From: Bryobacteraceae bacterium | Lineage (GTDB): Bacteria > Acidobacteriota > Terriglobia > Bryobacterales > Bryobacteraceae | Assembly: GCA_030044325.1 (NCBI GenBank) | Contig: JASHWA010000056.1 | Span: 1 to 40,264 of the forward strand | DNA length: 40,264 nt | Reading direction: 5' to 3' | Shown here: in pieces, positions 6,912 through 37,419 of the stretch | Position numbering within the stretch: the stretch's first letter is position 1 | Layout: each line of letters begins with the position of its first letter | Notes under the pieces: model-generated | Databases searched by the model: none | The model's input: only the letters and a program-made list of their open reading frames with translations | What the model was told of the DNA's origin: nothing | Program-made: the position numbers and the translations under genes

Positions 6912-7784
6912 TTAATACGGCGTCCGCTCGAACGCCTCGGTCGATGCGCGCGAACGGCTGCGCCGGCTCCCGGGCCATTCCAGGCGCATGTCGCGGCAAA
7001 CTTCATCCAGCATGTCGTGCGTGCAGACCTTGCTTTCGACCGCGAAAGCGGTGAGCAGGAGGTTGTCGCAGAGGGCGTTGATCACGCGCGGGATTCCCTG
7101 CGCGCGCACGTGAATCTCCGCCATCAGCTCTTCGGAAAAAATAGTCTGATTCGGCGCACCCGCGCGATCAAGGCGCGATTCGATATACTCCACCGCGTCG
7201 CGCAGCGTAAATGGTTGCAGATTGCAGCGCAGGACGATGCGCTGCTTCAACTGCCGCAGATTGGGCGCGTCCAGTTTCCGGTCGAGCTCCGGCTGCCCGG
7301 CAAGAATGATCTGCAACAGCTTCCCGTTGCGATTTTCGAGATTTCCCAGAAGCCGGATTTCCTCGAGCACCTCCCATTCGAGGTTATGTGCTTCGTCCAC
7401 GATCAGCACCACGGTTCGCCCGTCCTGCGCCTGCTCCACCAGCAACTGGTTCAGCGCGAACAAAACCTCGGTTTTCGATGTGCGCTGGCACGGCAGATCC
7501 AGATCGTAGGCGATCATTTCGAAAAACTGATCGGTGTTGACCCGCGAATTAAACAGGAACGCGAATTCGATATATTGCGATTCGAGGTAATCCCTCAGGC
7601 ACTCGAGCATCGTGGTTTTTCCAGTACCAACTTCGCCTGAGAGCACGATAAAGCCCTTACGCGCCTGCACGCCATATACCAGATTCGCCAGGGCTTCCTC
7701 GTGCTGTTCGCTCCGGTAAAAGAATGCCGGATCGGGACTTAAACTGAAAGGGGTCTCCGAGAAGCCAAAAAATGCGTTGTACAT
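6912..7784 (-). CDS. ExeA/GspA-like AAA ATPase
   Basis: This is an AAA+ ATPase of the ExeA/GspA (TniB-like) group, cytoplasmic ATPases that in some bacteria help assemble the type II secretion secretin. The start MYNAFFGFSETPFSLSPDP is the classical N-terminus. Walker A is GEVGTGKTT at residues 50-58, Walker B is VVLIVDEAHNL around residues 125-135, and the C-terminal lid ends with RVINALCDNLLLTAF. At 290 residues it has only the ATPase module, without the peptidoglycan-binding extension found in longer GspA proteins. No gsp genes are nearby; stand-alone copies of this type are common in Acidobacteriota and also occur beside exopolysaccharide loci. The exact role here is unknown. Confidence 0.88.
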   Translation of the reverse strand: MYNAFFGFSETPFSLSPDPAFFYRSEQHEEALANLVYGVQARKGFIVLSGEVGTGKTTMLECLRDYLESQYIEFAFLFNSRVNTDQFFEMIAYDLDLPCQRTSKTEVLFALNQLLVEQAQDGRTVVLIVDEAHNLEWEVLEEIRLLGNLENRNGKLLQIILAGQPELDRKLDAPNLRQLKQRIVLRCNLQPFTLRDAVEYIESRLDRAGAPNQTIFSEELMAEIHVRAQGIPRVINALCDNLLLTAFAVESKVCTHDMLDEVCRDMRLEWPGSRRSRSRASTEAFERTPY

Positions 7785-8287: not shown

Positions 8288-9397
8288 TCAGTCTGAAATT
8301 TCGAGCATCGCCCATCCCGGCAAACTCGCGGGATAGTTCTGTTGAAAAATCACCCGCCGCGTCTTGGGAAACGGCATCCCCGTCTGAATCGCTTTTTGAT
8401 ACAAGGGCACGTGCTTCAGGATTTGCCGGAATGATTCGTCCTGGGTATTCAAATACGCCGATTTTCCGAGCATCCCTCCACCCCAGCCAATCGACAGAAC
8501 GCACACATCCGTCCGCTCGCCGATTTCCTTGACGCGCCCTTCGAGCGCCCCGAGCGTCGCCGCAAGATACGGTAATCCTGCCCACGCGGCATATTGTTTA
8601 TGCCGCTCGATCAGCGCCGAAGCGTATTGGTTCGCGGCGTGAAACAATTTTCCCCGGTCGGCTGCCGAGCGCTCCCGCCACGCACCTGTAAACGCCGTGC
8701 CCGGCGTCGCCATCTCGGCGAAAATCGGCGTGCTCTCTTCGATTCTGCGCGGCTCCACGCTTCCGCGCGCCGATTTCCACCCCAGCTCGAATCTCCCCGC
8801 TCCCCGCGCCACCAGCGTCGCTACGCGCAGCAGGTACACTTTCATCGGCGCGTGCGTGATCGGCGACGAATCGGCCGCCGCGATGCGCCGCATGCGGCTC
8901 GATCCGGACCCTCCCAGCACCGCATCCTCCGCTATCGCCGCCGGATTCCGGGGCGGACGATCGTCTTGCGCGAGGCGCGCCGCCAGATCCGCCATCGTTT
9001 TTTCCGTCCAGCGTTCGAATACCGCGCCCGTGCGCAGCGCGCCCTTGATCGCCGTTCCCGGAACGTAAGGACCCGACGGCGATTCCGCGAACGTCGGAAT
9101 AAACAGGTTCGGCGCCATGGCGCGCTCCCAGTACGGAATGGCGCTCGAATGTTCGAAGGGAATTCGGCGCCCCGCGAAATTCTGCGCGAACCCTCCCCAG
9201 GATGCGAAATCCAGCTTGTCGGCTTTTTTGAGCTGCGCGAGATATCCGTCCAGGCGCGGACCCTTTGCCAACAGGCGAAAGATGCGCCGCTGATCGAGCA
9301 CGTTCACATGATCCTTCCAGACCATGTAATCGATCGGCGAAAGCCGCTGGCCGTCGCCGATGAGCGTGGGGGTCAAGCAGGTCAGTCTGTACCTCAT
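8288..9397 (-). CDS. csm5: Type III-A CRISPR RAMP protein Csm5
   Basis: Csm5 caps the 3' (crRNA spacer) end of the Csm effector filament and takes part in crRNA maturation. The 369-residue protein begins MRYRLTCLTPTLIGDGQRLS. Its first RAMP ferredoxin fold has YVPGTAIKGALRTG at about residues 111-124, the loop shared by Csm3 and Csm5. Near the C-terminus come the glycine-rich loop IGWGGGMLGKSAYLN and the PFPKTRRV motif typical of Csm5. The open frame runs back to 9607, but that part translates a palindromic repeat, so ATG 9397 is chosen. It is the last gene of the csm operon, 127 bp after csm4, with a repeat element in the gap. Confidence 0.85.
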   Translation of the reverse strand: MRYRLTCLTPTLIGDGQRLSPIDYMVWKDHVNVLDQRRIFRLLAKGPRLDGYLAQLKKADKLDFASWGGFAQNFAGRRIPFEHSSAIPYWERAMAPNLFIPTFAESPSGPYVPGTAIKGALRTGAVFERWTEKTMADLAARLAQDDRPPRNPAAIAEDAVLGGSGSSRMRRIAAADSSPITHAPMKVYLLRVATLVARGAGRFELGWKSARGSVEPRRIEESTPIFAEMATPGTAFTGAWRERSAADRGKLFHAANQYASALIERHKQYAAWAGLPYLAATLGALEGRVKEIGERTDVCVLSIGWGGGMLGKSAYLNTQDESFRQILKHVPLYQKAIQTGMPFPKTRRVIFQQNYPASLPGWAMLEISD

Positions 9398-9419
9398 CTG
9401 GTATATGCCCCGGTCAGTT

Positions 9420-9519
9420 GTGGCGCACGCGCTTTTGCGTGCCGCGTCCCCGCTCCTGGGGACGCCTGGCCCGGCGTCGGCACGAATGCCGACGCGGCAC
9501 GCACGAGTGCGTGCGCCAC
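9420..9519. repeat. 100-bp palindromic (REPIN-like) element between csm4 and csm5
   Basis: The left arm (9420-9448, beginning GTGGCGCACGC and ending GCGTGCCGCGTC) and the inverted right arm (9491-9519) match at 26 of 29 positions. Each arm is itself partly palindromic (GCACGC/GCGTGC). The middle contains a further hairpin, GACGCC..GGCGTC. Two inverted self-palindromic arms around a spacer is the architecture of a REP doublet. It sits in the csm operon and would be transcribed with it. Confidence 0.75.
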
Positions 9520-9524
9520 CACAC

Positions 9525-10475
9525 TCACGCGACCCTCCACGGAATCGCGACGGCGACCGCGAATCCGGCCCGATACACCGGATGCGCGAAGTTTTCCGGC
9601 GCCACATCCATCGCCGCGCCGCGCGGCTCGGCTTGCGCCACGATCACCGAGCCCTCCGCAACCATCCGCGTCGGCCGCTTCGCATCGCCGAAATCCTCGA
9701 CGCGCCCGGTGCGCGTAGTCAACGCGTAATCGCCGCGCTGCCAGTCGATCGAATCTTCCGCGGCCGGATGAAACAGGGACAACATCCACCACGCGCCCGA
9801 TCCCGCCACTCCGGTGACCAGCGCCGCGTCGTCATCGGAAAACGATATCTCCGCGCGCCCCCATCCGCGCGACCGCTCGCCTCCGAATCCCGAATCCGCC
9901 AGCAGCCGCAGCGCCGCGGTCACCGGCTCTTTCCATTTCTCCGAGTCCCGCAGTTGCGCGGTCATCCACATGCCCGCTTGTGGCGCGAATTCAAGACACG
10001 CGCTCGAATGTTGCTCCACCGCGGCGCCGTGCCGGTCGACCGCAGCGTTGGATCGCACCGAAACCCGAAACGGACCCTGCGCGCCTTGCGGAATCAGGCA
10101 CTCGCTCGCGCCGTCCACCGTCCAGTTTTCCTCCGAAATCGCGCGCCCGTGGACCAAATCGCCCGCGACGCTCATCGGCACGAACCGCGCGCCTTTCCAG
10201 CGCACCTTCGCCGACGGCGGCGGAGGCCACAAACTGCGCGGCGGAACGACGAACATCGTCTCGCCATGAAACGGAAAACATGAGCTCAGCCGCACCGCCG
10301 GATCCGCGCTCCGCGCCGTCGCGTCCAGCCACTCGTCGAGCATTCCCAGCCGCGCCATCGCGGTGGAAACGGCGGAATACACCGAATCGCTGTGATACAC
10401 GCGGTCCACCCGATCGCGGTCGCCCGAATCGGGTCCAATGCGCCAGGGGCCGGTGGGATAAAGTTTAACGATCAT
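9525..10475 (-). CDS. csm4: Type III-A CRISPR RAMP protein Csm4
   Basis: Csm4 is the Cas5-group subunit that binds the 5' repeat-derived handle of the crRNA and holds Cas10 in the Csm complex. The 316-residue product starts MIVKLYPTGPWRIG. It has the early YHSDSVYSAVSTAM segment corresponding to the Csm4 'hSDtlfsal' motif, and the RAMP glycine-rich loop LLADSGFGGERSRGWGR at about residues 191-207. ATG 10475 is used rather than the in-frame TTG at 10484. It sits 24 bp after csm3; that gap holds a 15-bp dispersed repeat word. Gene order and motifs support the call. Confidence 0.87.
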   Translation of the reverse strand: MIVKLYPTGPWRIGPDSGDRDRVDRVYHSDSVYSAVSTAMARLGMLDEWLDATARSADPAVRLSSCFPFHGETMFVVPPRSLWPPPPSAKVRWKGARFVPMSVAGDLVHGRAISEENWTVDGASECLIPQGAQGPFRVSVRSNAAVDRHGAAVEQHSSACLEFAPQAGMWMTAQLRDSEKWKEPVTAALRLLADSGFGGERSRGWGRAEISFSDDDAALVTGVAGSGAWWMLSLFHPAAEDSIDWQRGDYALTTRTGRVEDFGDAKRPTRMVAEGSVIVAQAEPRGAAMDVAPENFAHPVYRAGFAVAVAIPWRVA

Positions 10476-10486
10476 CGAGGGCAAGT

Positions 10487-10501
10487 GTGGGACAGCCGGT
10501 C
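10487..10501. repeat. Half-copy of the fliH-fliI repeat at the csm3/csm4 junction
   Basis: GTGGGACAGCCGGTC at this position is identical to the reverse complement of the right arm of the 4926-5014 hairpin. It fills most of the csm3-csm4 gap, and its last two bases lie in the csm3 stop codon. The partner arm is absent here, so this is a solo or degraded copy. Confidence 0.6.
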
Positions 10502-11336
10502 AATTCGCCAGCTTCTCGCCGAAATCCCCGTTCGACGTGACTTTCTGAATCGCGCCCAGATCCGCGCCCGATGCGAGCTCCGTCTCCGCGCCGCCCGAGG
10601 AATAAAACGCGCGATTGCGCCAGGCCAGCTTCAAATTCGCGAACCGCACCCGGCCGCTTCCGCGCGACCCTCCGCCGCCCAGCGCGTCGTCTTCGAGCAA
10701 TCGCAGCCCCTCGAACACGCGCGCCACCAGCGCCTTGTCTTCCTCGCACAAAATATCCATCACCATGCGAACCTTGAATCGCGCGCCCGCGGGAACGCGC
10801 TCAAGCGTCCTCGGATTGGCTTGCGATGTAATCCGGTCGATCGCGTTCTCGCTCTTGACCTCCGTGATTTCGTCGTCGAGATTCTCGCGCATCTGCGCCG
10901 TGATGCTGTCCGGCTCGAGCGGCGCGTCGTACACCGTCAGCCGCGCCGGACTCGCCGCGCGCGTCTCGATCGGCTCCCCCTCCATGCGCTCCACGCGGCC
11001 GGGGCTGCGCCCGAACAGCAGGCAGATTTCATCATCGGGCCGCTCGCTCTGATGAATGCGCACCTCCTGGCCGCGGCGCTTCGAAAGATACACCAGTTCG
11101 GCCGGCGTAGTCAGCCCCAGCGCGTTTTCAAGCAGCGACCGCAGCCTCCCGCGCAACGAGCTCCCCGGAATATACGGCAGCCCGAACGCGTCCTTCACCA
11201 CCGGATTATCCGCGCCGCCGATTTCCAGCGACCCCTTGCCCGCGCCGATGTGCAAGCCGGTTTCGCAGTGCAGATCGCCCGATAAAATCAGTTTCCCCAC
11301 CAACTGCAATTGTGTTTGAGCTGTGTGTGCGCTCAT
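10500..11336 (-). CDS. csm3: Type III-A CRISPR RAMP protein Csm3 (target-RNA nuclease backbone)
   Basis: Csm3 is the repeated backbone subunit of the Csm complex and cuts target RNA every 6 nt. The 278-residue sequence has the diagnostic start GDLHCETGLHIGAG (residues 20-33), then IGGADNPVVKD, in which Asp43 aligns with the catalytic Asp33 of Streptococcus thermophilus Csm3. Next comes YIPGSSLRGRLRSLLE (55-70), and the glycine-rich loop DDALGGGGSRGSGRVRF is at 216-232. The RNase function is therefore predicted to be intact. A GAGGA ribosome-binding site lies just before ATG 11336, and the gene begins 6 bp after the csm2-like stop. It is slightly longer than the usual 215-250 residues. Confidence 0.93.
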   Translation of the reverse strand: MSAHTAQTQLQLVGKLILSGDLHCETGLHIGAGKGSLEIGGADNPVVKDAFGLPYIPGSSLRGRLRSLLENALGLTTPAELVYLSKRRGQEVRIHQSERPDDEICLLFGRSPGRVERMEGEPIETRAASPARLTVYDAPLEPDSITAQMRENLDDEITEVKSENAIDRITSQANPRTLERVPAGARFKVRMVMDILCEEDKALVARVFEGLRLLEDDALGGGGSRGSGRVRFANLKLAWRNRAFYSSGGAETELASGADLGAIQKVTSNGDFGEKLAN

Positions 11337-11342
11337 ATTCCT

Positions 11343-12092
11343 CTATTCGTTATATGCGACGATCGCCTCAAAAAGGTCCTTGAATCGCTCGTATCCGCGC
11401 GCATCGTTTTTGCGCGTGACTTGCAACAGCAGCCGTTCGAGCGCGTCCAGGCTGCGCAGCGAATGCCGCACGATGGTGTACGCCAGGCGCGCTCTCAGCA
11501 TCACGAACTGGTGCTGCCGCTCGCTTTCCGGCGCCCGCACCGCGCGGCGAACCGCGTTGTACAATCGCCGCAACTGGCTCTTGGTGCCCGAATCCATGTC
11601 GCGCATCCGTGCCACCACCGCGTGCGCCTGGTTGTCCAGATACAGGCTGTCCGAAATCAGTTTTTCAAGCTCGATATCGGCGAAGCCTTCAAATGGCCGC
11701 GCGCCGCCGGGCCGTCCGCCCTCGCGCCGGTCTCCACGTTGTTCTCCGCGTTGTTCTCCGCGTTGTTCTCCGCGTTGTTCTCCACGTGGTTCTCCGCGCT
11801 GATCACCGCGGCCTTCGCGCCGGTCGCCGCGCCTCTGCTCGCCCTGCTGCGGACGTGGGCCGCGCTCTTCGCGCGGCTTCTCTTCCCGCCGTTGGCCCTG
11901 CGGTTTCGCTTCCGGCTTCGGCTGCGGCTTGGGCGGCTCGACTTTGGGAGCTTCAGCAGGAGCCTCCGGCTGAGGAGCCTCGGGCTGAGGAGCCTCGGGC
12001 TGAGGAGCCTCTGGCTGAGGAGCCTCGACCGTCGAGGCGGCCGGCTCCGGCGCCGCTTCTTTTTGAGTTTCGTTCTCTACCGCATCATCCAT
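11343..12092 (-). CDS. csm2: Csm2-like small subunit with long disordered N-terminal extension
   Basis: The 249-residue product has two parts. Residues about 134-249 are all-helical and fit Csm2, the small subunit lining the Csm filament: IELEKLISDSLYLDNQAHAV, then the Csm2-type block TKSQLRRLYNAVRRA (170-184) and a final LERLLLQVTRKNDARGYERF segment. Residues 1-133 are low complexity: an acidic/proline part with five-residue EAPQP repeats (about 23-45), a Lys/Pro part, and an Arg/Gly/Glu part with RGEQ repeats (about 103-120). Ordinary Csm2 is about 120-150 residues and lacks this extension. ATG 12092 follows AGGAAGGA by 6 nt, so the extension is in the predicted protein. It lies between cas10 and csm3, the standard csm2 slot. 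The Csm2 call rests on position and core pattern. Confidence 0.78.
   Translation of the reverse strand: MDDAVENETQKEAAPEPAASTVEAPQPEAPQPEAPQPEAPQPEAPAEAPKVEPPKPQPKPEAKPQGQRREEKPREERGPRPQQGEQRRGDRREGRGDQRGEPRGEQRGEQRGEQRGEQRGDRREGGRPGGARPFEGFADIELEKLISDSLYLDNQAHAVVARMRDMDSGTKSQLRRLYNAVRRAVRAPESERQHQFVMLRARLAYTIVRHSLRSLDALERLLLQVTRKNDARGYERFKDLFEAIVAYNE
11735..11806. repeat. 12-bp tandem repeat inside the csm2-like gene
   Basis: There are six units of CGCGTTGTTCTC (variants start CACG or read CGCGCTGATCAC) from 11735 to 11806, three of them identical in a row. On the coding strand each unit reads about RGEQ. Copy number in such arrays commonly varies between strains. Confidence 0.9.
11958..12032. 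repeat. 15-bp tandem repeat inside the csm2-like gene
   Basis: Five units with period 15 begin at 11958, 11973, 11988, 12003 and 12018, each carrying AGGAGCCT followed by a CGGGCTG-like half. On the coding strand they encode EAPQP repeats. The unit is a multiple of three, so changes in copy number keep the frame. Confidence 0.88.
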
Positions 12093-12183
12093 CGGACATC
12101 CTTCCTGGGTTGACAAACACTCGCTACATCCTCAGTTTCGCAAGCGCCTTCGACCGGCTGTGGCGAACAAAGGGTAGCGTAAG

Positions 12184-13626
12184 CTACTCAGCGGACAACC
12201 TCGCCCATTCTAGCGCCACGCGACCGGCGGGCCGCAACTTCACCGTCACCGCGCTGCGCCCGATCAGGTCCGCGATCAGCGCGGTGCGGGCTTTCTGAAA
12301 ATCGCCACGTTCCGGGGCGCCGTCCCGCGCCGCGCCCAGGATTCTGCGAATCCGCCGGTGATAGCGCCACGGCCGCTCGCCTCCCATCCTGCGAGCCTGC
12401 CGGCGCGACATTTTCGACTGCGTCTCGCGATAAATTCCGCATAAATCCCGCAGATATTGCGAAGAGACTCCATAATCCGAAATCATTCGCATCAAAGACT
12501 CTTTTAAATCCGACGCTTCGGAGAACTGCTTCCATTCGAGCGTCCGCCCCAGCAGCCAGATGCAATCCTTATCCGCCGATTTGGCGATCTCCAGCCGCTC
12601 GCCCGCCTCTTCAAACACCGCGCCCAGCGACGAATCGACCGCCGGCGCGAGCGCCAGCGCCATGCTGATCGTCTTCCCCTCCGGCCCGGCGAACTCCTGA
12701 AGCGTCGCCTCGACGAATCTGTGAAACAAGCGTTCGATCTCTCGCGCCAGCGCAATCAGCGCGTCCCACGCGCCATACACCGCGAAATCGTCGCCGCCCG
12801 AAAAAATCACCGTGACTTTTCGCCAGAACTCCGGCATCGAGCACAGCACTTCCAGCTCACCCGCGAAAAACTGCTTGTACATCACCGAAAGCTGGATGTG
12901 CTCCTCGATGGTTTGCGCCCGCCGAATGCGAATTCCGAAATTATCCACGTCGCCGCGCAACACACCCCACGTATTCAATCCCGACGCGCGCCCCGCCAGG
13001 GCGGCCGTCGAGGCCGGCTCGCGGCCGTCGTCGCTCGGCGCCGCGTGCCGCGCAAACGGCAGCGCTTCGGTCGACGATCCCGCCAGGCTCCAGACGTGCT
13101 TTCCTTCCCCGATATGAATCCGTCCCGGCGTTTCCGGCGACCACCCCGCCGATTCCGCGTCGCGCAGCTTCATCCCCAATTGCCCCGCGAAATAATGTTC
13201 CGAATCGCCGTCCGCGGCCGCGGGCGCCGCATCGAACCCCGGCGTTCCCCGCCGATGCTCCATCTGCTCGGTCAACCGCCGCCGGACGTCGCTCCAATCG
13301 CCCAGATTTTCCGTGACGCTCCACAGCAGCTTCAGCAATCCTGCGCTCAAATCGGCGATCTCGCGCGCCGCGCCGTCCAGAAAATTGTCGGCCGCGCCGC
13401 GCGATTCCTCCGGCAGCACCACCAAAAACTGCCCGCCTCCGCTCGATCCCAAAAGGATTTTCGACAATCCCAGCTCGTTGAGCAGCGCGCGCGGCAAAAT
13501 TTCCATCAGCAGCGTGATCCAATGCGAGCGCCCGGTGAAGACCTGGTCATGGTCTTTTTCGGACGGCGCGAACAGAAACTCTTCGATCCCGAGGAGCTTC
13601 CCCTGTAGGAAAATTTGCACGGACAT
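12184..13626 (-). CDS. csm1: Cas10/Csm1, compact form without HD nuclease domain
   Basis: Cas10 is the large subunit of type III CRISPR complexes; its second palm domain makes cyclic oligoadenylates when target RNA binds. This 480-residue protein starts directly at the first palm region: QGKLLGIEEFLFA (residues 8-20) aligns with the GDISGIQxFIF motif, and LLGSSGGGQFLVVLPEE (58-74) with the SGGGxFxLLxP strand. The second palm has GDVDNFG (225-231) and the catalytic FSGGDD (275-280). The usual N-terminal HD DNase domain is absent, and residues 81-261 contain no cysteine, so the inter-palm zinc site is also missing. Family members are usually about 750-850 residues. Cyclase activity is predicted, single-stranded DNase activity is not. 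Type III-D Cas10 also often lacks HD, but the neighbouring Csm3/4/5 point to III-A. Confidence 0.9.
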   Translation of the reverse strand: MSVQIFLQGKLLGIEEFLFAPSEKDHDQVFTGRSHWITLLMEILPRALLNELGLSKILLGSSGGGQFLVVLPEESRGAADNFLDGAAREIADLSAGLLKLLWSVTENLGDWSDVRRRLTEQMEHRRGTPGFDAAPAAADGDSEHYFAGQLGMKLRDAESAGWSPETPGRIHIGEGKHVWSLAGSSTEALPFARHAAPSDDGREPASTAALAGRASGLNTWGVLRGDVDNFGIRIRRAQTIEEHIQLSVMYKQFFAGELEVLCSMPEFWRKVTVIFSGGDDFAVYGAWDALIALAREIERLFHRFVEATLQEFAGPEGKTISMALALAPAVDSSLGAVFEEAGERLEIAKSADKDCIWLLGRTLEWKQFSEASDLKESLMRMISDYGVSSQYLRDLCGIYRETQSKMSRRQARRMGGERPWRYHRRIRRILGAARDGAPERGDFQKARTALIADLIGRSAVTVKLRPAGRVALEWARLSAE

Positions 13627-13667
13627 CGTGAGGCGAAATCAACACTTTAGCACGTATGCCAGCCGCC

Positions 13668-14045
13668 TCACAGCCACTTCTTTGCGCGCCACTCGTCGAG
13701 CGCGGCGCCGGTCAGCCGCTCGAGCTCGCCAAGCTGCGCAGCCTCCGGAACGGTCTTGAAATTGAAGCACGTCTTGCCCTGCATGCGCTTCTTCAATTCC
13801 GGCGAAACGCCGCCGGCGAGTTTCGGATTCATGTACAGCGGCATCAAATGATAACTCACGTACGCCTTGCCGCGCCGCACCTGTGCGAACCACAGCGGCT
13901 GTCCTTTATGCTGCGGAAACGGCGACGGCGACTTGCCGACCAACGTGAATTCGGCCGCAGTGTCGGCTTTCACCGCCAGCTTTTCCGCATGTTTGGACAG
14001 CACCGCTTTCAACTTGGTAAAAACGGAATCGAATTCGGCCGCCAT
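13668..14045 (-). CDS. DUF1801-like small protein upstream of cas10
   Basis: This 125-residue soluble protein resembles the DUF1801/YdhG-like fold by pattern: a helical start (FDSVFTKLKAVLSKHAEKL), a central strand pair with GKAYVSYHLMPLYMNP, and a final GKTCFNFKTVPEAAQLGELE segment. No catalytic residues are evident. It ends 41 bp before the cas10 start on the same strand, so it may be co-transcribed with the csm operon. Homologues of this family occur widely outside CRISPR loci, so the association may be accidental. Function unknown. Confidence 0.6.
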   Translation of the reverse strand: MAAEFDSVFTKLKAVLSKHAEKLAVKADTAAEFTLVGKSPSPFPQHKGQPLWFAQVRRGKAYVSYHLMPLYMNPKLAGGVSPELKKRMQGKTCFNFKTVPEAAQLGELERLTGAALDEWRAKKWL

Positions 14046-31413: not shown

Positions 31414-32868
31414 TCACTGCGAAAGTTTCCGGACCGCGCTCTGCACCACCGCATCCCGCTGCATTTCGATCTCATCGCCCTTGGCGACGCCGAAGGCCAG
31501 ATTGGTCAGATCCTGCTTCAGGCGGCTCTGAATCCAGTCGCGATGGCTGATCCACTCGGCGGGGCCGGGCTGGATGCGATTTTCCGAGAGGAACAGCTGC
31601 AGCTCGTCGAGCATTTCCGGCGTGACTTCGAAATTTTCCTGGAGCGTGTGTTTTTCCAGATATTGGCCGGCGAACTTGGTGATCGCGCCGGTGGCTTCGA
31701 GCACCATGGTCAGACGATCGATGGGATCGCGCTCCACCACCTGGTCCGGCTCGATTCCGCCTCCGCCGTGAACTTCGCGGCCCGAATCTGTGTGGAATGT
31801 GCCTTGGGTCTGGCTGGTGGCGGCATCGAGCGTTCCGCCATGGAGCGGCTTTTGAATCGACCGCCCACTGGGAGTGTAATAATACGCGACGGTGAGCGCC
31901 ATTCCGCTGTTGCCGGAGAGCGGAAAAACGTTTTGCACGAGTCCTTTTCCGTAGCTCGGCGTGCCGAAGACGCTGGCGCGGTCGTGATCCTGGAGCGCGC
32001 CGGTGACAATCTCCGATGCGCTGGCGGTTTTCCCGTTGATCAGAACGGCCAGCGGAAATTTGTACGGCGCAGCCAGCTTGGGGACGTGAACTTCCTGCGT
32101 TTTCTGCGCCCGGCCTTTGATGGTGAACACCAGCTGATCGGGCGCCAGGAACAGTGACGCGACTTCGAGCGCGGCTTCGGCCACGCCGCCGGGATTGTCG
32201 CGCAGGTCCATAACCAGTCCTTTTAAATTCGTCCCGCCGAGCTTTTCGATGGTGTCTTTGACCAGCCCGCCGGTCGCCTGATCGAAGCTGGTGACGCGGA
32301 TGTAGCCGATCGAGGGCGTAAGCATGAAGGCGCGATCTACACTGGGCGAATCCATGAGCGCCGGTTCGAGCGTGACGTGGAAGACGCGGGCGTTGCGCAG
32401 CACATCGAGCTCGGCTTTCTGCTGGCGCGCGATGGTGAGAAGCTGCACCAGCTGATCGAATTCGAGACGCGCGAGAATGTAGCCGTTGATGGCGAGGATC
32501 TCGTCGCCCGGCGCGAGACCGGCTTTTTCCGACGGCGTTCCGGCCATGGCTTGCAGAATGATCACGCGGCCGGGCAGAACGCTGACGATGCTGCCAAATC
32601 CTTTGTGCTCGCTGTTCTGCATTTCCTTGAGCTGCTGGAACTGGCCGGGATCGAAGAAAATCGAATGCGGATCGAGGGTTCGCAGCATGCCCGGAATCGC
32701 GCCCTGATACAGCAGAACGTTGGGATCGGCGGCGTCGGCCGCGTTCTGGTCGACGGCGACAAACACGTCGACCAGTTTCTTGAGCTGCCGCGCGAGTTCG
32801 TCGCCGGCATCGGATTCTTGGGCTGCGGACGGGATCGTGAACAGGAGCAGGAGAGCGAAGAATCGCAC
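31414..32868 (-). CDS. S41 family C-terminal processing peptidase (copy 1)
   Basis: This exported serine protease of the CtpA/Prc family is 484 residues from GTG 32868. It has a signal peptide (VRFFALLLLFTIPSAAQ), the N-terminal GAIPGMLRTLDPHSIFFDP motif, a PDZ domain (PSEKAGLAPGDEILAINGYI) and the S41 core. The catalytic pair is Ser283 in KTASASEIV and Lys308 in SYGKGLVQN, 25 residues apart as in CtpB. The DLRDNPGGVAEAALEVASLF motif is present. The open frame extends to 33189 but would overlap ddl. The paralogue at 35785-37419 shares the whole architecture. Substrates are unknown; related enzymes trim or degrade periplasmic proteins. Confidence 0.9.
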   Translation of the reverse strand: MRFFALLLLFTIPSAAQESDAGDELARQLKKLVDVFVAVDQNAADAADPNVLLYQGAIPGMLRTLDPHSIFFDPGQFQQLKEMQNSEHKGFGSIVSVLPGRVIILQAMAGTPSEKAGLAPGDEILAINGYILARLEFDQLVQLLTIARQQKAELDVLRNARVFHVTLEPALMDSPSVDRAFMLTPSIGYIRVTSFDQATGGLVKDTIEKLGGTNLKGLVMDLRDNPGGVAEAALEVASLFLAPDQLVFTIKGRAQKTQEVHVPKLAAPYKFPLAVLINGKTASASEIVTGALQDHDRASVFGTPSYGKGLVQNVFPLSGNSGMALTVAYYYTPSGRSIQKPLHGGTLDAATSQTQGTFHTDSGREVHGGGGIEPDQVVERDPIDRLTMVLEATGAITKFAGQYLEKHTLQENFEVTPEMLDELQLFLSENRIQPGPAEWISHRDWIQSRLKQDLTNLAFGVAKGDEIEMQRDAVVQSAVRKLSQ

Positions 32869-32972
32869 GCACTTACCCACCTGCCGTGTCTGTGTGAGAG
32901 CCCGCCCAAAACCGCTCCCTACGGTCGGGGTTTTAGAGAAATGTCTTCCGCCTTTTGGGAGCGACGTCATGA

Positions 32973-33950
32973 TTACCTGGAATAACGAATCGTTTGTTTT
33001 TCTCGATGACGCTCGACCGCGAGCTCGATCAGGCGATCGATAAGCTGCGCGTACGGAAGACCGCTCGCTTCCCACATTTTCGGATACATGCTGATGGATG
33101 TGAACCCCGGGATGGTGTTGATCTCGTTGATAAAAAATCTTTGCGTGGCCGATTCCATCAGGAAATCGACTCTCGCCATGCCTTCGCAATCGACCGCTTT
33201 ATAACATTCGACTGCGAGGCCGCGGATTTTTTCGGTTTGTTTCGCGTTGAGATCTGCCGGGACGATGGTTTGCGCTTTGTCGAGCAGATATTTGTCTTCG
33301 TAGTCGTAGAATTCGCGTGAAGGGAGGATTTCGCAGGGGAGCGATGCGACGGGATTTTCGTTGCCGAGCACGGAGCATTCGAATTCGCGGCCTGCGATCC
33401 CACGCTCGACGATGATTTTGCGGTCGAACTCGGCGGCCAGCTCCAGCGCGGAGAGCAGCTCTTCGCACGTTTTCGCTTTCGAGACGCCGACCGAGGAGCC
33501 CAGATTGGCGGGCTTGACGAACACCGGGAATGGGAATCGGCCGCACACGTCTTCGCGCTTGTACTGGTCGCGGCGCAGGCTGAGGGACTCGACGACGGGC
33601 AGGCCGGCTTCCGAGATCAGACGTTTCATGATCTCTTTATCCATCGATACCGACGACGCGAGCACGCCCGCGCCGACGTAGGCCAGATCGGCGAGCTCGA
33701 GCAGGCCCTGAACTGTGCCGTCTTCGCCGAAAGTTCCGTGCAGCACCGGAAAAACGACGTCGATTCCGCCGTTCGCGCCGGGTTCGGGCGAGATGGCGCG
33801 CGGGGTCCAGCGGCCGTTTTTGTCGATCAGGATGCGCTCGACGTCATAGCGCGATGGATCCATCGCGGCGATCACCGACTCGGCCGAGCGCAGCGAAACT
33901 TCGTGCTCGCCCGTGCGGCCTCCGTAGAGAACGGCTACGCGTAGCTTCAT
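32973..33950 (-). CDS. ddl: D-alanine--D-alanine ligase
   Basis: Ddl is a cytoplasmic ATP-grasp enzyme making D-Ala-D-Ala for peptidoglycan. The 325-residue protein has the N-terminal VAVLYGGRTGEHEVSLRSAE (residues 5-24), FPVLHGTFGEDGTVQGLLE, the ATP-grasp lysine region PVFVKPANLGSSVGVSKAK, and the metal-binding end MARVDFLMES ... FFINEINTIPGFTSISMYPK. The length is normal. It overlaps arginase by 4 bp at its start (ATGA), so they share a transcript. Whether it prefers D-Ala or D-lactate cannot be stated with confidence from inspection. Confidence 0.96.
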   Translation of the reverse strand: MKLRVAVLYGGRTGEHEVSLRSAESVIAAMDPSRYDVERILIDKNGRWTPRAISPEPGANGGIDVVFPVLHGTFGEDGTVQGLLELADLAYVGAGVLASSVSMDKEIMKRLISEAGLPVVESLSLRRDQYKREDVCGRFPFPVFVKPANLGSSVGVSKAKTCEELLSALELAAEFDRKIIVERGIAGREFECSVLGNENPVASLPCEILPSREFYDYEDKYLLDKAQTIVPADLNAKQTEKIRGLAVECYKAVDCEGMARVDFLMESATQRFFINEINTIPGFTSISMYPKMWEASGLPYAQLIDRLIELAVERHREKQTIRYSR

Positions 33951-35784: not shown

Positions 35785-37419
35785 ATGCCAGGAGCCCATT
35801 CGCGTCTCAAGACGGGCCGTCTTCGGAATTATCTGTTCGCGCCGGCGGTGATCGTCGTCTGCTCGCTTGGGGCCGGGTTCCTCAACAGCGATAGCGCTGT
35901 GGCGGCCACGCAGGACGACGATGTCGCGCAGAGCATGAAGTCGTTCACCAGCGTGCTGGACCTGGTGCAGCGCAACTTCGCCGATCCGGTGAACGACGAT
36001 AAGGCCATCTATAACGGCGCGATTCCGGGCATGCTGCACACCCTCGATCCGCATTCGAATTTCTTCGATCCCAAGGCGTACGCGGAGATGCGCGACGAAC
36101 AACGCGCGCGCTACTACGGCCTGGGAATGACGGTGGGGCCGGGCGGTGACAAGTTCGATAAAACGGTGGTGCGTTATCCCTTCAACGGCTCGCCCGCCGA
36201 CAAAGCCGGGCTTCGCGCCGGTGACGCGATCCTGGAAGTCAACGACAAAAAGACCGACGGCATGGATACCACGCAGGTGGTCAACATGATCAAAGGTCCG
36301 CGCGGGACTTACGTGCAGTTGACCATCGGGCGCGACGGGCACGATCAGCCGCTGACTTTCAACGTGATGCGCGATGAAATTGCGCGGCCCAGCGTTTCGC
36401 TCGCGTTCATGATCAAGCCGGGTGTGGCTTATGTGAAAGTGGATAATTTTACCGACGAGCACACCAGCAAGGAGCTCGAAGACGACTTGAAATCGCTCGG
36501 CGAGATGAATCTCAAAGGCTTGGTGCTCGATCTGCGGGAAAATCCGGGCGGAATTCTGAATGAAGGCATCGAGGTCGCCGGGCATTTCCTCAAGAAGGGG
36601 CAGATTGTGGTGAGCCACAGCGGGCGCACCCAGCCTTCCAAGAGCTTCACTTCCCACACCAACAACGGCGGCCATGAATATCCCATGGTGGTGCTGGTGA
36701 ACCGCCGCTCGGCTTCGGCCGCCGAGATCGTTTCCGGCGCGTTGCAGGATCACGACCGCGCCTGGATTCTGGGCGAAACCACCTTCGGCAAGGGCTTGGT
36801 GCAATCGGTGTTCCCGCTGAGCGAAAATACGGCGCTCGCGCTGACCACCATGCAATACTATACGCCCAGCGGACGCTGGATCCAGCGCAAATATTCGAAT
36901 ATTTCCTTCCTCGATTACTACTTCAACAACAAGGATCAGAGGAACGTCAACGACGTGAAAATGACCGACAGCGGCCGCACGGTGTACGGCGGCGGCGGCA
37001 TCACGCCGGACGAGAAATACGATTCGCCCAAGCTGAACAAGTTCCAGGTGGAGGTGCTGCGCAACATGGAGTTTTTCAACTTCGCCGCGCAGTATTTCGG
37101 CGCCAAGTCCGATCCGGGACTGGCCAAGGGGTGGGAGCCGGACGAGAGCATGATCAACCAGTTCCACGATTTTCTGATGTCCAAGAAGATCGCCTTCACT
37201 GAGCTCGATTTCACCGAGAACCACCAGTGGGTCAAGGAGCAGTTGAAACAGGAGATGTACGTCACCTCCTTCAGTTTCGACGACTCCGAACGCGTGCGCA
37301 TCGAGCAGGACCCGGAAGTCGCCAAGGCCGTCGAGGCCATGCCCAAAGCGCAGGGATTGCTCGACCGGGCGAAGAAAATGATCGTTCAGAGAATGCCGCT
37401 CGAGCGTCCGGCGCAGTAG
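35785..37419 (+). CDS. S41 family C-terminal processing peptidase (copy 2)
   Basis: This 544-residue exported CtpA/Prc-type protease has a signal/anchor at about residues 16-37 (LFAPAVIVVCSLGAGF). The N-terminal block has GAIPGMLHTLDPHSNFFDPK, the PDZ domain SPADKAGLRAGDAILEVNDK, and the S41 core LVLDLRENPGGILNEGIEVA. Ser311 in RSASAAEIV and Lys336 in TTFGKGLVQ form the catalytic pair. ATG 35785 has a near-perfect AGGAGG site. It is co-linear with copy 1 but differs in N- and C-terminal parts and has an insert around LDYYFNNKDQRNVNDV. A pair of tetraloop hairpins follows the stop. Confidence 0.93.
   Translation: MPGAHSRLKTGRLRNYLFAPAVIVVCSLGAGFLNSDSAVAATQDDDVAQSMKSFTSVLDLVQRNFADPVNDDKAIYNGAIPGMLHTLDPHSNFFDPKAYAEMRDEQRARYYGLGMTVGPGGDKFDKTVVRYPFNGSPADKAGLRAGDAILEVNDKKTDGMDTTQVVNMIKGPRGTYVQLTIGRDGHDQPLTFNVMRDEIARPSVSLAFMIKPGVAYVKVDNFTDEHTSKELEDDLKSLGEMNLKGLVLDLRENPGGILNEGIEVAGHFLKKGQIVVSHSGRTQPSKSFTSHTNNGGHEYPMVVLVNRRSASAAEIVSGALQDHDRAWILGETTFGKGLVQSVFPLSENTALALTTMQYYTPSGRWIQRKYSNISFLDYYFNNKDQRNVNDVKMTDSGRTVYGGGGITPDEKYDSPKLNKFQVEVLRNMEFFNFAAQYFGAKSDPGLAKGWEPDESMINQFHDFLMSKKIAFTELDFTENHQWVKEQLKQEMYVTSFSFDDSERVRIEQDPEVAKAVEAMPKAQGLLDRAKKMIVQRMPLERPAQ

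Follow-up and report, generated by a model that had tools for sequence, protein, structure and literature searches.

CRISPR (clustered regularly interspaced short palindromic repeats) systems are normally patchy in their distribution, horizontally moved and tied to arrays. Type III-A Csm complexes, such as those of Thermococcus onnurineus, Lactococcus lactis and Enterococcus italicus, are the relatives with which a cas10-csm2-csm3-csm4-csm5 operon from a Bryobacteraceae bacterium (contig JASHWA010000056.1) can be compared; the whole 40,264-nt stretch that was analysed is called the window below. The operon shares with these complexes the five Csm subunits, the gene order, the two-palm fold and the catalytic Asp of Csm3, but it has no HD domain or zinc cysteines in Cas10 and no linked array, cas1, cas6 or csm6, and it differs further in an RG-rich tail on Csm2 and in being vertically fixed across the family. 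We propose, with confidence evenly balanced for and against, that it encodes a vertically inherited, DNase-free, RNA-guided and RNA-cutting Csm complex that has been uncoupled from CRISPR adaptation.

Absence of the HD domain is not new in itself. In a survey of 1113 complete type III loci, taken from complete genomes and excluding Cas10s under 500 aa, an HD domain was recognizable in 65% of III-A and 3% of III-D loci (PMC11229360). Because about 35% of III-A Cas10s have no recognizable HD, an HD-less Csm1 is ordinary, and the framing of this trait as one of type III-D, made in an earlier note on the same DNA, is weak. The HD-less III-A loci of that survey resemble ours in their Csm locus, cyclase motif and missing HD, whereas the Bryobacteraceae Cas10 is shorter, has no recognised effector alongside and often carries a broken cyclase. 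Type III-D also has a Cas10 without HD, but its Cas7 and Cas5 proteins are different, and the Csm2 to Csm5 profiles win clearly in the window (208 bits for the Csm3 model versus 63.6 for the best Cas7_IIId). Type III-G, like our locus, has neither adaptation module nor array at the locus, and use of CRISPR RNAs (crRNAs) in trans has been proposed for it (PMC12669027). Its HD remains active, the catalytic Asp of its Cas7 is gone and Csx26 is present (PMC12669027), a pattern that is reversed in Bryobacteraceae, where HD is lost, the Csm3 Asp is invariant and Csm2 is present. What is new is that the complex is conserved vertically throughout the family in the absence of dedicated arrays. The passages searched in the 2025 classification, which give about 97% of Cas10s as predicted active, name no such HD-less III-A variant, and the papers searched hold no account of an HD-less Bryobacteraceae Csm clade.

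Three features define the Cas10 of the window:

12184..13626, minus strand: cas10/csm1, 480 aa, with palm1, a linker, palm2 and a C-terminal domain, without HD or zinc cysteines (profiles, structure and motifs).
12934..12954, minus strand: GDVDNFG, the first palm2 motif of Cas10, residues 225-231 (sequence; conserved in the family).
12787..12798, minus strand: GGDD, the cyclase motif of Cas10, residues 277-280 (sequence; eroded in other family members).

The reading frame is uninterrupted, and its product scores 178.9 bits against TIGR02578, the Cas10/Csm1 equivalog, just above the curated cut-off of 170, and matches the palm2 domain PF22335 at 5.9e-21. When the family is aligned to a solved Csm1 (8wfx, 813 aa), residues 11-98 correspond to 273-362 and residues 217-319 to 544-665, and these offsets indicate that some 260 N-terminal residues, comprising HD and linker, are missing. 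Its only cysteines are residues 262, 355 and 396; since the first of them is residue 262, none lies between the palms. An AlphaFold2 model built from 16 family sequences (predicted local distance difference test score 81.8) retrieves III-A Csm1 chains first in a PDB search, with 9g9c as the top match (E 3.9e-20, query template-modelling score 0.71). Profiles, the 8wfx alignment and motif positions therefore agree with the earlier description of a compact Cas10 that lacks HD and inter-palm cysteines while GDVDNFG and GGDD are intact, and the absence of the HD nuclease with retention of both palms and GGDD is confirmed. The intact GGDD is the motif of an active cyclase, an activity that is predicted for the window's protein.

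Such a short protein could also be a truncated or misassembled form of a normal HD-containing Csm1, and its length alone would suit that explanation. However, the same compact protein, with the same start, recurs in more than 100 independent assemblies, a conserved promoter lies just upstream and no HD-like motif is found nearby. The family alignment refutes the artefact, to which we assign next to no probability. Both escape routes that had been raised with the original description, a 5′ assembly error and an HD encoded separately or lost by frameshift, were followed up. The recurrent start and the conserved extended -10 element upstream of it speak against the former. As for the latter, no HD-like motif occurs in any of the six frames around cas10 or in the long upstream open frames of two other family genomes (G027 and G056). 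The gene adjoining cas10 upstream (13668-14045) has no family match in the profile search.

The distribution of this Cas10 is that of an inherited family trait. Our family sample held 171 genomes at least 90% complete, most of them metagenome-assembled genomes (MAGs), with a high-quality subset of 148 genomes from 64 genera. The compact orthologue is present in 165 of the 171, in 143 of the high-quality subset and in 61 of its genera. By comparison, in an even sample of 393 Acidobacteriota genomes outside Bryobacteraceae only 16 match, all distantly (at most 100 bits versus about 750); most of these matches lie in open reading frames of 807-890 aa, as long as a normal Csm1. By this evidence the HD-less clade seems restricted to Bryobacteraceae, and we place the loss of HD most likely on the stem of the family, the outgroup loci having been checked for HD in part. 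A quick, unrooted tree of 75 Cas10 sequences recovers the window's genus (g1) as a single group (21/21, support 99), and genera g66, g67, g92, g86 and g69 each form a single group. The five-gene block is complete wherever the contig is long enough, and around it the gene neighbourhood is otherwise mostly rearranged.

Purifying selection on the operon is strong. Ratios of nonsynonymous to synonymous substitution rates (dN/dS) are 0.01-0.16 for cas10 to csm5 in close pairs and near 0.05 in the tested pairs of the window's genus. Compared with the window, the best-matching segments in most other genera are about 80-95% identical in the Csm2 domain and about 75% in Csm3. One genus, g75, has neither core csm nor core cas6 in its two genomes (G148 and G149); the G148 assembly is 6.3 Mb in 4 contigs.

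The two catalytic sites of the complex have fared differently across the family. That of Csm3 lies in the backbone gene of the operon:

10500..11336, minus strand: csm3 (Cas7 backbone), 278 aa (TIGR02582, 205.5 bits against a cut-off of 90).
11208..11210, minus strand: codon of the Csm3 catalytic Asp43 (IGGADNPVVKD), Asp in 112 of 113 family sequences.

The sole exception to the Csm3 Asp is a broken frame. In Cas10, by contrast, 95 of the 116 distinct family sequences retain GGDD and 21 have it altered; eight of the 21 read GGDE, and the remainder are changed further or destroyed. In genera g66 and g69 no sampled member retains the motif, and parsimony needs 9 changes in the state of the motif on the Cas10 tree. 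These dead-cyclase genera retain complete csm operons, and the g69 pair is under purifying selection (Cas10 dN/dS 0.075, one pair). Since the cyclase motif has been lost repeatedly in whole genera with the Csm3 Asp invariant, signalling through cyclic oligoadenylate (cOA) is probably not the conserved function; judged from these motifs, the conserved output is more likely RNA binding and cutting. The absence of HD together with the intact Csm3 Asp also makes RNA cutting without DNA cutting by Cas10, as first proposed for this locus, a sound prediction.

A cOA alarm, in which the Cas10 cyclase is switched on by target RNA and answered by unlinked effectors elsewhere in the genome, would fit the GGDD of the window and of the other distinct sequences that keep it. 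It is at odds with the destruction of the motif in whole genera whose operons are intact and constrained. For 104 flanking genes, the 25 most frequent families listed for each scan include no known cOA effector, and a search of 100 family genomes found no member of the Csx1 HEPN family, other CARF and SAVED effectors not having been searched genome-wide. The csm neighbours, which include siroheme-synthesis, VWA and other genes, were considered as effectors and rejected, none being a known one. We regard the alarm as very improbable. The signalling predicted at the outset accordingly holds for the window as far as its intact GGDD goes and is weakly supported as a core function of the family.

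Neither an array nor cas1 accompanies the csm operon, and the window itself contains no CRISPR array. Counted with a widened repeat pattern, for which a reversed control pattern gave stray matches in 4 to 5 genomes, canonical-type arrays are present in 73 of the 171 family genomes and undetected in 98. Cas10 is kept in 72 of the former and 93 of the latter (Fisher p 0.24). Retention of Csm in genomes without a detectable array suggests another source of guides, or a job other than ordinary virus immunity. Cas1 is likewise patchy (27 of 61 family genomes) and was not found in the window's genome (a MAG, 79% complete) or in G011, a 100%-complete relative. For Bryobacteraceae strain F-183, no CRISPRs were detected (PMC8759368).

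The strongest rival to our proposal is that of an ordinary antiviral III-A effector that has no array of its own and borrows crRNAs in trans from the patchy III-B, I-C and I-G systems. Type III-like arrays with repeats ending GGGGATTGARAC do occur in several family genomes, near the core cas6 in G029 and G109, and the proposal made for III-G offers a precedent. Where patchy arrays with adjoining cas genes were inspected, they accompany other systems, namely Cmr-type loci and a reverse transcriptase-Cas1 with Csx11, and arrays of ATTGAAGC repeats, one of them at a contig start in G030, adjoin long Cas1 frames that we read as I-G type. Yet retention of Cas10 does not depend on arrays, which argues against trans crRNAs as the main reason for its conservation, and most genomes of the window's genus have no detected array although their csm genes are as constrained as stated above. 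Borrowing is therefore unlikely in our estimate, while carrying more weight than any other rival. One genome with a core Csm (G058) also encodes an 820-aa reverse transcriptase-Cas1 fusion beside a CRISPR array, together with a 1123-aa Csx11-like Cas10 with an HD motif (L229, contig C229, 1-10474).

Alternatively, immunity may be of the normal III-A kind and its arrays may have been missed, being very short, having unusual repeat ends or being lost from metagenome assemblies. Arrays frequently sit at contig ends, narrower patterns overlooked the ATTGAAGC arrays, and in G029, a genome without a core csm operon, a core-like cas6 directly adjoins an array whose repeat ends in CCCCGATTCGGAGGGGATTGAGAC (L087, 9213-11260). 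This explanation keeps some probability because the genomes are mostly MAGs and genome-wide scanning presupposed particular repeat ends. Against it, no array was found in the 20-kb stretches fetched around csm or cas6 of array-negative genomes and no pattern match in the window's genome, and a search for two-repeat ATTGARAC arrays was negative for 16 of the 17 genomes in its genus. In G011, 840 kb was scanned free of any assumption about the repeat, namely the two 20-kb ends of each of 18 contigs and a single end of four others; no array was found there, and the same code recovered all control arrays. G205, a 9.5-Mb genome in two contigs, has no triple match to the repeat pattern. We consider missed arrays improbable.

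If guides are made, the processing enzyme at hand is a Cas6 that is conserved apart from the operon. A distinct core Cas6 clade is found in 132 of 148 high-quality genomes and 61 of 64 genera, and in none of the loci fetched does its gene lie close to csm. In the window's genome it is:

C201:1562-2296: the unlinked Cas6 (54 bits against a cut-off of 25).

The core Cas6 has no sequence match in the PDB, and its structural model shows a Cas6 fold. Most Cas6 proteins of the window's genus (L068-L072, L074 and L075) are without a cysteine-containing stretch that is kept in other genera and in G010 and G013. Candidates for a conserved non-coding guide were rejected at both loci: upstream of the operon it is mainly the promoter that is common and the downstream matches belong to an ExeA-like ATPase gene, while the few matches around cas6 lie mainly downstream in a common neighbouring gene. 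Rfam gave no match on the window and four loci.

For an RNA-cutting complex uncoupled from adaptation, the following course of events can be envisaged. In the stem lineage, a III-A-derived complex would have lost the HD nuclease and zinc module of Cas10, and Cas10-Csm2-Csm3-Csm4-Csm5 with the unlinked Cas6 would have become fixed as a standing machine, freed from its own array and from cas1 and cas2. Cas6 may cut a repeat-like element in some transcript, and the resulting guide RNA would be loaded onto the Csm4/Csm3/Csm2 backbone, where pairing with a target RNA would lead to cleavage by Csm3 Asp43. Cas10 would serve as a structural head with an optional cyclase, its motif present in the window and decayed elsewhere, and the RG-rich Csm2 tail may contribute RNA binding or clustering. 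The role would be a non-adaptive one, either regulatory or constitutive surveillance. A bolder version, which we hold only tentatively and with less confidence than the proposal as a whole, is a host RNA-silencing machine domesticated for as long as the family has existed, using guides that a dedicated Cas6 cuts out of non-CRISPR transcripts; its DNase would have disappeared at the root of the family and its cyclase in one lineage after another.

Several points weigh against this proposal. The RNA-guided step is one that we infer. Because about 82% of distinct sequences retain an intact GGDD, selection may still act on the cyclase in many lineages. The genome-wide array scans relied on canonical repeat ends (AYTGARRC), and arrays often drop out of MAGs. 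Finally, Cas6 diverges more quickly than Csm3, and the window's genus has a shortened form of it.

A Csm complex that is housekeeping-constant across more than 60 genera amounts to a natural experiment on type III without adaptive memory. It makes testable whether bacteria can convert a CRISPR effector into a permanent regulator guided by RNA, and what guides such a regulator would use. It also means that Cas10 and Csm genes met in surveys of Acidobacteriota need not signify adaptive immunity.

The operon is intact in the window, and csm2 to csm5 each exceed their NCBIfam cut-offs, which bears out the pairing with Csm3, Csm4 and Csm5 reported in the earlier note and adds Csm2. Its remaining parts and its neighbour are:

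13644..13652, minus strand: extended -10 promoter element of the operon, TGCTAAAGT; 84 of 92 distinct upstream regions in the family have such an element.
11343..12116, minus strand: csm2, with an RG/P-rich low-complexity N-terminal tail and the Csm2 domain at about 11352-11639 (PF03750, 40 bits; TIGR01870).
9525..10484, minus strand: csm4 (Cas5), 319 aa (TIGR01903, 132 bits against a cut-off of 55).
8288..9397, minus strand: csm5, with Met71 of the longer frame 8288-9607 as its probable start (TIGR01899, 56.5 bits against a cut-off of 38.3).
6912..7784, minus strand: ExeA-like AAA ATPase downstream of csm5, found there on the same strand in 35 of 74 loci.

The promoter element is of the TGnTAnAnT type and lies 20-66 nt before the cas10 start; shuffled sequences have such an element in 4.5% of cases. 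Given its conservation, the operon is probably driven by a conserved promoter of its own. The start of csm5 is probably 9397 and not 9607: a gene beginning at 9607 would overlap csm4, and conservation begins only at Met71. Similar RG-rich Csm2 tails, conserved in kind, occur in nearly every family member inspected; in the window the tail (11640-12090) is encoded by 12- and 15-nt tandem repeats.

The ExeA-like ATPase, near the XrtA/PEP-CTERM-associated ATPase, scores 293 bits against TIGR03015, under the curated cut-off of 324.5, and is about 70-80% identical in most of the family loci that have it downstream of csm5. Its position 3′ of csm5 in loci that include deep branches suggests an ancestral linkage; it is a recurrent neighbour whose functional link to the complex is putative. 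Directly 5′ of cas10 in one family locus (L043 of G041, 13029-13376), five 70-bp tandem repeats have an array-like look and were rejected as a CRISPR array, the repeat being without distinct spacers. Elsewhere in the window, a 63-nt inverted repeat (32647-32709 and 36010-36072, copies 3.3 kb apart) consists of parts of two similar S41/CtpA-like protease genes, at 31414-33189 on the minus strand and 35785-37419 on the plus strand.
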